Source: Deltaproteobacteria bacterium RIFCSPHIGHO2_02_FULL_44_16 (GTDB lineage Bacteria > UBA10199 > 2-02-FULL-44-16). Taken from it: a stretch of DNA of 52,179 bases. The position numbers and the translations under genes were made by a program. The stretch lies in NCBI GenBank assembly GCA_001798185.1, contig MGRM01000012.1, positions 1 to 52,179 of the forward strand, read 5' to 3'. Position 1 is the first letter of the stretch, and each line of letters starts with the position of its first letter. Shown piece after piece: positions 5,618-37,194 of this stretch. The notes below the pieces were generated by a model. That model was not told the DNA's origin. It searched no databases and was given only the letters and a program-made list of their open reading frames with translations.

Positions 5618-5980
5618 TCAATGAGAGAGGTTTCGGAGATCTCCTCCAATAAGCAAATAGAGTTGAAAAGCATCGGGATGATCAATATGAAGCAAACCTT
5701 CCCGAAGTGCGCTTCCCCCTTGCTGAGTGTAACAAGTAAGATCAGCGCAATTTTCCATGAGCATGAAGTGAGCGCTTTCATAATTGCTCATCGCTTCAAT
5801 GAGAAAACCATTGGCCTGATAATATTGAGCTCGCGCTATAAACGTATTCGTAATCAGAGAACAGGAATCAGTTTGATGACAAAGCTCATAGGCTGTTTCA
5901 AAACTTCCTTTTTCTGCTGCTGTCAGCGCCCTATGATACATATCAATTTTTTGTGAACTTGAAATACGTGAAACTGCCAT
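5618..5980 (-). CDS. Small helical protein of unknown function, downstream of a cobalamin riboswitch
   Basis: The product is 120 residues and mostly helical, with a TPR-like stretch (YHRALTAAEKGSFETAYELC, then ARAQYYQANGFLIEAMSNYE). It has several cysteines and no signal peptide or membrane segment. The start at 5980 is chosen because AGGAGG lies five bases upstream; an in-frame start 22 codons earlier would fall inside the leader hairpin. It is the first gene after the minus-strand B12 riboswitch and its expression platform, and leuS follows 52 nt later. I do not recognise the family. The position suggests expression that falls when cobalamin is plentiful, but the sequence gives no direct link to cobalamin chemistry. 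Confidence 0.75.
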   Translation of the reverse strand: MAVSRISSSQKIDMYHRALTAAEKGSFETAYELCHQTDSCSLITNTFIARAQYYQANGFLIEAMSNYESAHFMLMENCADLTCYTQQGGSALREGLLHIDHPDAFQLYLLIGGDLRNLSH

Positions 5981-6053
5981 GACAACCTCCTCGGTTGTCG
6001 CGACAAAAATGGTGGGGAAATAAAAAGAGACAAGCTCTTCCACCACGTCGCGA
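5981..6053 (-). promoter_or_regulatory. Probable expression platform: two abutting hairpins, one presenting the SD in its loop
   Basis: Read on the minus strand, TCGCGAC plus TGGTGG (6053-6047 and 6045-6040) can pair with CCACCA and GTCGCGA (6015-6010 and 6004-5998). A second stem GACAACC/GGTTGTC (5999-5993 with 5987-5981) follows directly and holds GAGGA, the core of the Shine-Dalgarno, in its five-base loop just before the ATG. The two helices share two bases. This looks like a translational on/off device for the riboswitch upstream. Pairing is seen by eye; no energies were calculated. Confidence 0.5.
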
Positions 6054-6065
6054 GTGGATAAAAAA

Positions 6066-6232
6066 CGCTCTGAGCAGGTTTCCTGACTTGAAGAATTCCT
6101 CCCCCGTTGCTCGCCTTCCCGCTGAAAGATCAGCAGTGACTCTTTATCGCAACAAGGAATTTCTTCTCACAGTGGCGCGTCCGTGTCGGATTTTCACCGA
6201 CTTCCCTCTCTCCCACAATGGGATCACTCAAG
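6066..6232 (-). promoter_or_regulatory. Cobalamin (B12) riboswitch
   Basis: On the minus strand the conserved blocks of the adenosylcobalamin-type aptamer occur in order. They are GGGAAGTCGGTGAAAATCCG then ACACGG (6206-6181), GCCACTGTGA (6176-6167), GTCACTG and GGGAAGGCG in the middle, and the B12 box GTCAGGAAACCTGCTC (from about 6087 down to 6072). Spacing matches the family. The 5' limit is approximate. It lies 85 nt upstream of the small unknown gene, which heads the leuS-holA unit. It points away from the PhnD-like gene, so it should not control that gene. Confidence 0.93.
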
Positions 6233-6319: not shown

Positions 6320-7090
6320 ATGAAGCGGATTTTCTTTTTTCTTTTCCTTTCTCTGTTCCTCTTTTCGATTTCTGGTGAAACAAAGGAAATCAAAATGCTC
6401 TTTTGGTACCCCGGAGAAGCTGGAACTCCACAAGAAGCGAAACCTGTTTTAGACCTTTTCTTTCACTATCTTTCCAAAAAATTAACCTCAGATCAGGTGA
6501 CAGGGGTGTACATCAATACGGTTAATGATGGCATTGTCTCCATTAAACGTGAACTTCCTGATATTGCGATTGTCAGTTATCCAACCTGGGTGACCTACAA
6601 AAATCGCATGGCAGGAGCAGAACCTTGGCTTTCAGCGCTCCCCTTTCCTCATGGAAAATCGACGGAAGTTTATACGTTAGTGGGAAACCAATCGACACTC
6701 GTTGCTGGAGCTACAGTGTATAGCGACGAAACCTTAACCTCTGAATTTATTCAACATTATCTTTTCCCTTCGCTCAAAAATAAAATAAAAATACAAAAAA
6801 CTCCTGACACCTTCAACTCTCTCAAACGGATTGGTCAAAAAGAGATAAAGGCATACATCCTCTTAAACCCTCTTGAAGTAAGAACCCTTGAGCACCTCAA
6901 AACACCGTGGAGTCAGAATCTTCACAAGATTCAAACGTCTCAACCAATTCCTACAGCGCGTGTGATTCTTTTTTCACCAGACCTTCCTCAAAAAAATCGT
7001 CTTCAAAAAATTCTCGTGGAGATGCAGCGAGATCCTGCAGCAAAAGAAATCTTAGAAGAGATGCGACTTGTAGGTTTCTCTTTTCCTTAA
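6320..7090 (+). CDS. PhnD/SsuA-type periplasmic substrate-binding protein
   Basis: The 256-residue product has a clear signal peptide (MKRIFFFLFLSLFLFSISGE). A periplasmic binding fold of the phosphate/phosphonate type follows: an N-terminal lobe with WYPGEAGTPQEAKPVLDLFF, a hinge segment LPDIAIVSYPTWV, and a C-terminal region RDPAAKEILEEMRLVGF as in PhnD-like proteins. No ABC permease or ATPase lies nearby, so the ligand is open. The start at 6320 is preferred over an upstream in-frame ATG because it begins the signal peptide directly. It is transcribed away from the cobalamin riboswitch. Its strand is clear; transport of phosphonate itself is not shown. Confidence 0.8.
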   Translation: MKRIFFFLFLSLFLFSISGETKEIKMLFWYPGEAGTPQEAKPVLDLFFHYLSKKLTSDQVTGVYINTVNDGIVSIKRELPDIAIVSYPTWVTYKNRMAGAEPWLSALPFPHGKSTEVYTLVGNQSTLVAGATVYSDETLTSEFIQHYLFPSLKNKIKIQKTPDTFNSLKRIGQKEIKAYILLNPLEVRTLEHLKTPWSQNLHKIQTSQPIPTARVILFSPDLPQKNRLQKILVEMQRDPAAKEILEEMRLVGFSFP

Positions 7091-35289: not shown

Positions 35290-35380
35290 GTCATTGCGAG
35301 GAGCATAGCGACGAAGCAATCCCCTGCAAACAGTGTTTTCGGGAGATCGCCACGTCGGCCTTTGGCCTCCTCGCGATGAC
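35290..35380. repeat. REP-like repeat, GTCATTGCGAG ... CGCGATGAC family
   Basis: The arms are GTCATTGCGAGGAGCATAGC (from 35290) and GGCCTCCTCGCGATGAC (ending 35380), with GGGAGATCGCCACG inside, as in the copy at 7271-7344. It lies between purC and the HpnD-like gene on the same strand, making a likely terminator hairpin. It produces a false 26-codon extension of the downstream frame. Confidence 0.85.
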
Positions 35381-35410
35381 ATTACTTGGACATTTCTCAG
35401 AGGTTTTAAA

Positions 35411-36277
35411 ATGATGCCGATGGATCCACAAGCATATTGTCATGATGTGTGTAAAAAAAGTGGTTCCAATTTTCTCTACACTCTCCCCTTTCTGCAACAA
35501 AAAGATCAACGTCGAGCGCTTGAAGCTTTTTACGCTTTTTGTGCGAGTGTCGATGCGAGTGTCGATGAGGCCAAAGACAAAACCACAGCACGAGCAGAAC
35601 TCAGCTTTTGGCGAATGGAAGTCGATCGAATGTATGTCAGTACACCACAGCATCCTATTGGACTGGCGCTTACTCCCTATCTTCGCCGTTATGCGATCCC
35701 CCAACAATACCTGATGGATATTGTGAATGGATGCGAAATGGATCTTGAAAAAAACGAGTATGCCACGTTCGCTGAGCTTGAACTCTATTGTTACCGGGTG
35801 GCTTCATGTGTGGGACTTGTCTGTATTCGCATTTTTGGGATTGAACCGACAAAACACCATGAAGAGATCGCCATCGCTTTTGGGAAAGCACTTCAGCTCA
35901 CCAACATTCTTCGAGATGTGGTCGAAGATCTCGATCGTCAACGAATCTATCTTCCACAGGAAGATTTTCACCACTTTCACGTCAGCATAGAAGATTTTCA
36001 ACAGCGTCGAAATTCCAAGGCCATTTGCATGCTTCTCAGTCATGAAATGAAACGCGCTCGTCATTTTTTTCGCCTGGCGTTTGAAAATATTCCGGATGAT
36101 AAAATGGAAAGGGGGAAATGGTTTCCAGCTATGCTCATGGCACGAGCCTATGAAGGGATTCTCCACACACTTGAAAAAAATCCGACGATCATCTATCAAC
36201 GAAAAGTTCGACTTTCAACCTGGAGAAAAGGCATTATTATCCTGCGCACATGGATCGAAAACTTCAAAGGATTTTAA
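35411..36277 (+). CDS. HpnD-like presqualene diphosphate / phytoene synthase family enzyme
   Basis: Head-to-head prenyl condensing enzyme, 288 residues. The first Asp-rich motif is in YAFCASVDASVDEAKD (DxxxD) and the second in LTNILRDVVEDLDRQRIYLP (DxxxD). The beginning YCHDVCKKSGSNFLYTLPFL resembles HpnD, which makes presqualene diphosphate from two farnesyl diphosphates. Phytoene synthase is the main alternative. AGAGG seven bases before ATG 35411 sets the start. It overlaps the next, related gene by 28 nt. Confidence 0.88.
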   Translation: MMPMDPQAYCHDVCKKSGSNFLYTLPFLQQKDQRRALEAFYAFCASVDASVDEAKDKTTARAELSFWRMEVDRMYVSTPQHPIGLALTPYLRRYAIPQQYLMDIVNGCEMDLEKNEYATFAELELYCYRVASCVGLVCIRIFGIEPTKHHEEIAIAFGKALQLTNILRDVVEDLDRQRIYLPQEDFHHFHVSIEDFQQRRNSKAICMLLSHEMKRARHFFRLAFENIPDDKMERGKWFPAMLMARAYEGILHTLEKNPTIIYQRKVRLSTWRKGIIILRTWIENFKGF

Positions 36278-37194
36278 AAAACGTTTCGCGCTCTTTTTAT
36301 TTGAGCCTTCTTCTTCTCCCGGAGCCCCTACAAAAAACTCTCGGTCTTGCTTTTCTTTTTTGTAAAGCCGCAGATACGATTGCTGATACCGACATTATTC
36401 CGGTAGAAAAGCGTCTCTCGGTCCTTCACACTTATCGCGATGTGTTTTTGCGGGGCCTGCCGTTTCATGGCGAAGTGAATCTCTTCTATCGTGGTGGTTC
36501 TGTTGCTGAGCGCGAGCTCCTGCATGCTATTCCGGACCTTTTTATAACCCTCGACGCATTGCCACTTGAAGACCAACGTCATATCCGATGGCTTCTTCCA
36601 GAATTAACGCAAGGAATGATTCTGGACCTCACTTTTTTCACTAATCAGCATCAAATGAGAGCTCTCCCCACAGCAGAAACGCTTGATCGTTACACGTATG
36701 CAGTTGCAGGTTGTGTCGGAATATTTTGGACCCGTATTCTTAAAGCTCATTACCCATTTGCAGCAACCTGGACTCATGAAGTTGAAGAGATCGGCGAACA
36801 ATTTGGCAAAGGACTTCAGATGGTGAATGTGCTCCGCGATCTTCCACACGATCTGGAACAAGGTCGTTGCTATCTTCCGGAAGATGCGCTCACGCAAAAT
36901 GGAATTGCACCTCGTGATCTTATTGATGTCAATCTCAGACCAAAAATGAAATCATTTCTCGCATCCTATATCGCACAAACACACGACATGCTTCGCGCTG
37001 GTGTTCGTTATGTTGCATTTCTCCCCTCTCAGGAACGACGACTCCGTGCAGCAGTCCTCCTTCCGATGAGACTTGGTCATCAAACGCTCGATCAATTGAC
37101 GGCATCTTCAAATTGGCCCGACACAGATCACGTAATGAAAGTTCCGCGGTGGAAGGTGTATACAACTTTGTTTCAAACCTTACTTTTTTCTTAA
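36250..37194 (+). CDS. Squalene synthase-like enzyme (FDFT/HpnC-type)
   Basis: 314 residues, a second member of the squalene/phytoene synthase superfamily. The beginning KNVSRSFYLSLLLLPEPLQK resembles true squalene synthases. The Asp motifs are in FCKAADTIADTD and VNVLRDLPHDLEQGRCYLP. It starts within the end of the HpnD-like gene, so the two enzymes are probably made together. It may convert presqualene diphosphate onward, but the reductase HpnE and a squalene-hopene cyclase are not in the window. No ribosome binding site is visible, consistent with coupling. Confidence 0.85.
   Translation: MDRKLQRILKNVSRSFYLSLLLLPEPLQKTLGLAFLFCKAADTIADTDIIPVEKRLSVLHTYRDVFLRGLPFHGEVNLFYRGGSVAERELLHAIPDLFITLDALPLEDQRHIRWLLPELTQGMILDLTFFTNQHQMRALPTAETLDRYTYAVAGCVGIFWTRILKAHYPFAATWTHEVEEIGEQFGKGLQMVNVLRDLPHDLEQGRCYLPEDALTQNGIAPRDLIDVNLRPKMKSFLASYIAQTHDMLRAGVRYVAFLPSQERRLRAAVLLPMRLGHQTLDQLTASSNWPDTDHVMKVPRWKVYTTLFQTLLFS

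Follow-up and report, generated by a model that had tools for sequence, protein, structure and literature searches.

A cobalamin riboswitch apparently re-targeted from btuB to a lineage-specific small gene

Riboswitches are reliable pointers to function. Which function, then, is indicated by a cobalamin riboswitch in front of a small gene that, according to profile searches, falls outside the known B12 functional classes (transport, synthesis, cobalt and B12-independent isozymes)? This question is raised by a locus on the minus strand of the window, the whole stretch of 52,179 nt of DNA from Deltaproteobacteria bacterium RIFCSPHIGHO2_02_FULL_44_16 that was analysed here. With moderate confidence, we propose that the riboswitch is intact and probably working, that it has lost btuB as its target, and that its present target is a gene for a 120-aa TPR-like protein, which would be controlled by a translational OFF switch. 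The aptamer, the hairpin-forming sequences, the gene content and the synteny on which this proposal builds can be read directly from the DNA.

The initial annotation claimed a cobalamin riboswitch on the minus strand, and this was confirmed by cmscan. The aptamer (6246–6056) matched RF00174 over the full model (positions 1–189) with 90.3 bits, far above the curated gathering score of 31.5 bits (E = 4e-21). The annotated span, 5618–6232, covers the aptamer and the small gene, except for ~14 nt at the start of the former. RF00174 was the only Rfam family in the 52-kb window, and the aptamer was the only copy of RF00174 in the genome, a metagenome-assembled genome (MAG) of 1.98 Mb in 29 contigs that is 97.5% complete. 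Among the relatives, 53 of 60 carried RF00174, most of them in a single copy, and the window aptamer had the highest score in its order (90.3 versus 58.6–79.7 bits).

The order includes seven other carriers (G002–G008), and in each of them a btuB-like TonB receptor gene starts directly 3' of the riboswitch. The receptor of G003, for instance, matched the TonB B12 receptor model TIGR01779 at 1.6e-55, yet remained under the cut-off of that model. Across the class, btuB was found within the downstream stretch read at 18 of 28 riboswitch loci, where several of the loci without btuB were read for ≤1.5 kb only. The riboswitches of G010 (L041), G015 (L046) and G020 (L049) lead into large lipoproteins, and btuB was not found in the 2.1 kb downstream of the first nor in the about 5 kb downstream of each of the other two. 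In the window genome, a domain search of the MAG did not find any TonB Plug domain, whereas seven of the eight relatives tested had one to three each. The only tested relative without Plug, G001, belongs to the family of the window genome; it also lacks B12-binding domains and the riboswitch. The ancestral target btuB thus appears to have been lost from the window genome. Since the MAG is 97.5% complete, it is possible that btuB resides in the missing part.

The genome has nevertheless kept the B12-dependent methionine synthase MetH and a two-piece methylmalonyl-CoA mutase, while CbiC, a marker of corrin-ring synthesis, was found neither in this genome nor in 13 relatives. Hence, the B12 of this organism most likely comes from outside. 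By this gene content, B12 is used by the cell but probably not synthesised in it, and the standard outer-membrane receptor is missing. The sole Peripla_BP_2 protein of the genome has 325 aa and no evident signal peptide, and within the stretch read its gene is located away from any transporter gene. Candidates for BtuC were rejected, as the FecCD-like matches were weak and part of a two-gene cluster resembling a metal ABC-3 permease. In G003, a DUF6580 membrane protein (L034:7219-7743) follows btuB and two lipoproteins in the same gene cluster, and a DUF6580 protein is retained elsewhere in the window genome (G000:C28:5794-6324, L155), without btuB. Because of this retention, and because no strong BtuC was found in the family of this genome, DUF6580 may be regarded as a candidate for B12 transport across the inner membrane. 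The idea that DUF6580 is a relative of a structurally known B12 transporter was dropped, as it had no PDB match and no supporting paper was found.

The aptamer is followed by a P13/L13 hairpin, UCCAC-UCGCGACGUG-GUGGA (6058–6039; short form CCAC-UCGCGAC-GUGG, 6057–6043), assigned from its position, complementarity and covariation. Its loop CGCG can form 4 bp with L5 (ACGCG), as judged by sequence complementarity only. L13 is offset from the aptamer end by 3 nt, versus 4–25 nt in nearly all relatives (the computed offset for G006 refers to an earlier CGCGTA). Most relatives have U/ACCCG as their L5, and their platform hairpin, 4–25 nt past the aptamer, has a loop CGnGGA and the Shine-Dalgarno sequence inside or beside its 3' strand. 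The published L5 consensus is UCCCG, which forms functional pairs with C-G-G in L13 of the metE switch of P. megaterium (PMC10653944), so that the n of the CGnGGA loop would read as a bulge. G018 has the same L5 as the window and a near-identical P13/L13 hairpin. More generally, the three relatives with N-CGCG in L5 all have CGCG in L13, against a C at that place in 4 of 17 others, a covariation within the class with Fisher p = 0.031 (window genome excluded). The CGAGGA loop of the core Shine-Dalgarno hairpin described below was also considered as L13. Although it matches the class motif CGnGGA, it was rejected because its third base would face a G of L5 in this genome, and because the upstream CGCG hairpin fits both position and pairing.

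Two further hairpins can form on the minus strand. The anti-sequester hairpin (6052–5999; predicted −20.1 kcal/mol) occupies L13 together with the 3' strand of P13, and therefore excludes P13. The sequester hairpin (6006–5974; predicted −17.2 kcal/mol in its extended form) would close over the start of the small gene, with both its Shine-Dalgarno sequence (GAGGAGG) and its AUG. The core of this hairpin, GACAACC-GAGGA-GGUUGUC (5999–5981; predicted −9.7 kcal/mol), is predicted in both states, which counts against the proposed switch. The predicted cost of opening the Shine-Dalgarno sequence and AUG rose by 8.6 kcal/mol, from 8.4 kcal/mol without P13 to 17.0 kcal/mol with P13 enforced. Shuffled spacers gave a rise of only 0.4 ± 1.3 kcal/mol, and 0 of 400 reached 8.6 kcal/mol (two sets of 400); this margin of about six standard deviations is weakened by the design of the test after the fold was seen, and co-transcriptional folding is ignored in the calculation.

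What we infer from these sequences is that the RNA switches and in which direction, together with the part played by the protein and the ends of the transcript. Binding of cobalamin would dock L5 on L13 and thereby stabilise P13, whose formation is predicted to cost 2.3–5.3 kcal/mol, to be paid by the kissing loop and the ligand. P13 would disrupt the anti-sequester hairpin, and the freed 3' arm of the latter would extend the hairpin that buries the Shine-Dalgarno sequence and AUG of the small gene, such that translation stops. When cobalamin is absent, the anti-sequester hairpin would form and the start site would open more easily. Synthesis of the small protein would therefore be expected under B12 scarcity, in a cell that depends on B12 from outside.

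The small gene, the presumed regulated gene, runs from an ATG at 5980 to a stop ending at 5618, with its Shine-Dalgarno sequence 5 nt upstream. Its codon score of 11.6 bits over 120 codons exceeded that of every non-coding 120-codon window (maximum 10.9); relative to coding windows, it was above the 5th percentile (3.8) but below the 25th (15.9). Hence, the small gene probably encodes a protein, with a score that is low for coding sequence. A point against the proposed reading is an in-frame GTG at 6046, which has no Shine-Dalgarno sequence in front of it but would extend the ORF through the platform (6046–5981), and this extension scores as coding.

The initial annotation described an unrecognised 120-residue helical protein, and this description holds: no Pfam, NCBIfam, PHROGs, PADLOC or PDB match exceeded its cut-off, and AlphaFold2 predicted six helices from the single sequence (five models, with a pLDDT of 80 in the best one and 42.5–67.7 in the rest). 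Foldseek returned mostly TPR or designed TPR proteins, with a best E of 0.056, a TM of about 0.3 and no match with E < 0.001. The possible likeness to TPR proteins (SycD/PcrH, HOP TPR2A and others) would consist of a predicted stack of helical hairpins over about 120 residues. At this level of structural similarity (E about 0.06), and with sequence matches to TPR family profiles under the cut-off (in Pfam, PF17004 SRP_TPR_like came closest, with 14.2 bits versus a cut-off of 35), we call the protein TPR-like, while its membership of the TPR family is not established. No homologue was accepted in 60 relatives, where a single match of 24% identity (E = 0.0045) was rejected. Likewise, none was found in 46 genomes of the class, nor in GTDB r220 contigs, viral contigs, plasmids and phages; the GTDB r220 and viral scans require exact stretches of 8 residues, which distant relatives would escape. 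The small gene is thus known from one genome.

Further downstream on the minus strand, leuS (5565–3136; leucyl-tRNA synthetase, TIGR00396, 1085 bits) follows the small gene after 52 nt and overlaps by 4 nt with holA (3139–2150; DNA polymerase III delta subunit, TIGR01128, 269 bits). The linkage of leuS and holA, usually followed by rpsT, is conserved in the relatives, and none of the leuS loci read in these relatives had a riboswitch or the small gene before leuS. On the other side, a divergent gene for a PhnD-like substrate-binding protein (6320–7090, plus strand; PF12974, 32 bits) lies outside the riboswitch transcript. A homologue occurs on the leuS contig in G001 and G004–G009, at a distance of about 0.2–11 kb, which makes it an old neighbour of leuS in the class. 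Beyond the PhnD-like gene there is a ROK kinase, a feature in common with G001. Since leuS–holA is conserved and the PhnD-like gene is found near leuS in relatives, the riboswitch and the small gene occupy a variable spot with an old neighbour on either side. An assembly chimera is unlikely, as it would take two joins to produce a single contig with long-standing neighbours on both sides. Elsewhere in the window, two adjacent ORFs at 35333–37194 resemble squalene/phytoene synthases (HpnC/HpnD-like), judging from sequence alone.

Several other explanations of this locus deserve attention. The initial annotation considered a tRNA synthetase operon under B12 control, in which the riboswitch would govern the small gene, leuS and holA, so that leucyl-tRNA charging and replication respond to B12. 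The three genes are indeed on the same strand, and leuS has no good Shine-Dalgarno sequence at the usual distance. Moreover, the claim that no terminator precedes leuS is borne out, as no terminator-like site was found on the minus strand in the 52-nt gap. A promoter consensus scan found nothing in this gap either, although its yield for the region (4 versus 7.2 expected by chance) makes it little informative. Co-transcription of the small gene and leuS is therefore possible. Yet, leuS–holA was never behind a riboswitch in the relatives read, and none of the papers searched connects a cobalamin riboswitch with leucyl-tRNA synthetase. Furthermore, what the platform is predicted to control is the start of translation at 5980, so that B12 could affect leuS only through polarity or coupling. 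The operon reading is not supported by these results, and we regard it as very unlikely. Most likely, leuS merely shares a transcript with the small gene and is probably an incidental neighbour; B12 control of leuS is unlikely. The leuS–holA pair, downstream on the same strand, would start independently, and any effect of B12 on it would be indirect.

Alternatively, the riboswitch might be a relic of a btuB operon that has moved or been lost, with a small ORF that is unregulated or spurious. In favour of a relic are the missing btuB, the lack of homologues of the small ORF and the insertion of the locus between genes that have long been neighbours. It is at odds with the best aptamer score of the order, with a P13/L13 hairpin and a sequester hairpin over the ORF start that are intact beyond chance, and with a codon score above all non-coding windows. 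We therefore consider a relic unlikely. The same applies to an orphan riboswitch, another option of the initial annotation, because aptamer, kissing-loop partner and the hairpin sequestering the next start codon are all intact. One might also suppose an ON switch, in which P13 and the repressing hairpin are mutually exclusive, as in the cobT riboswitch of A. halodurans. The 3' strand of P13 does take part in the anti-sequester hairpin as well, which is the topology of an activating switch (PMC10653944). However, the alternative hairpin lacks a U-run after its outer stem, and the start site in our model became less accessible, not more, upon formation of P13. An ON switch thus seems highly improbable.

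Re-targeting of the riboswitch to a lineage-specific gene is the best reading of the sequence. It would make the locus a clear case of a riboswitch that has lost its ancestral target and has apparently acquired another. Moreover, the aptamer is intact and the platform looks tailored to an orphan gene, in a genome that needs B12 yet lacks the standard outer-membrane importer; this yields a concrete candidate for a new B12-related protein. A new B12-related factor had been suggested before, and the fit of the platform to the small gene supports this suggestion in part. Speculatively, the protein could be a new B12-scarcity factor, made only at low cobalamin, that helps a TonB-less B12 auxotroph to obtain or spare the cofactor, although we would give this specific role a rather small chance.

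How does this locus compare with known systems? With the E. coli btuB type of translational OFF switch (RF00174) it has the aptamer, the L5–L13 kissing loop, P13 and an RBS hairpin in common, but its downstream gene encodes an orphan TPR-like protein instead of BtuB. The layout agrees with the published logic of E. coli btuB, where P13 is stabilised by the kissing loop and formation of the RBS hairpin is thereby favoured (summarised in PMC10653944). In the relatives examined, P13 overlaps the Shine-Dalgarno sequence, whereas in the window they are about 40 nt apart, with the anti-sequester hairpin in between. This arrangement resembles the metE platform of P. megaterium, where P13 likewise shares its 3' strand with an anti-structure that it excludes, so that formation of P13 releases a repressing hairpin (PMC10653944). 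The repressing hairpin of metE is a transcription terminator, however, while that of the window buries the Shine-Dalgarno sequence and AUG. The window platform is predicted to combine the metE logic with an RBS hairpin of the E. coli btuB type. The locus may also be likened to the ppe2 riboswitch of M. tuberculosis, where B12 controls a gene of uncertain function via translation of a short upstream ORF (PMC11260477). In ppe2, this upstream ORF is coupled by a stop/start overlap (PMC11260477), whereas the small gene in the window spans 120 codons and is separated from leuS by 52 nt.
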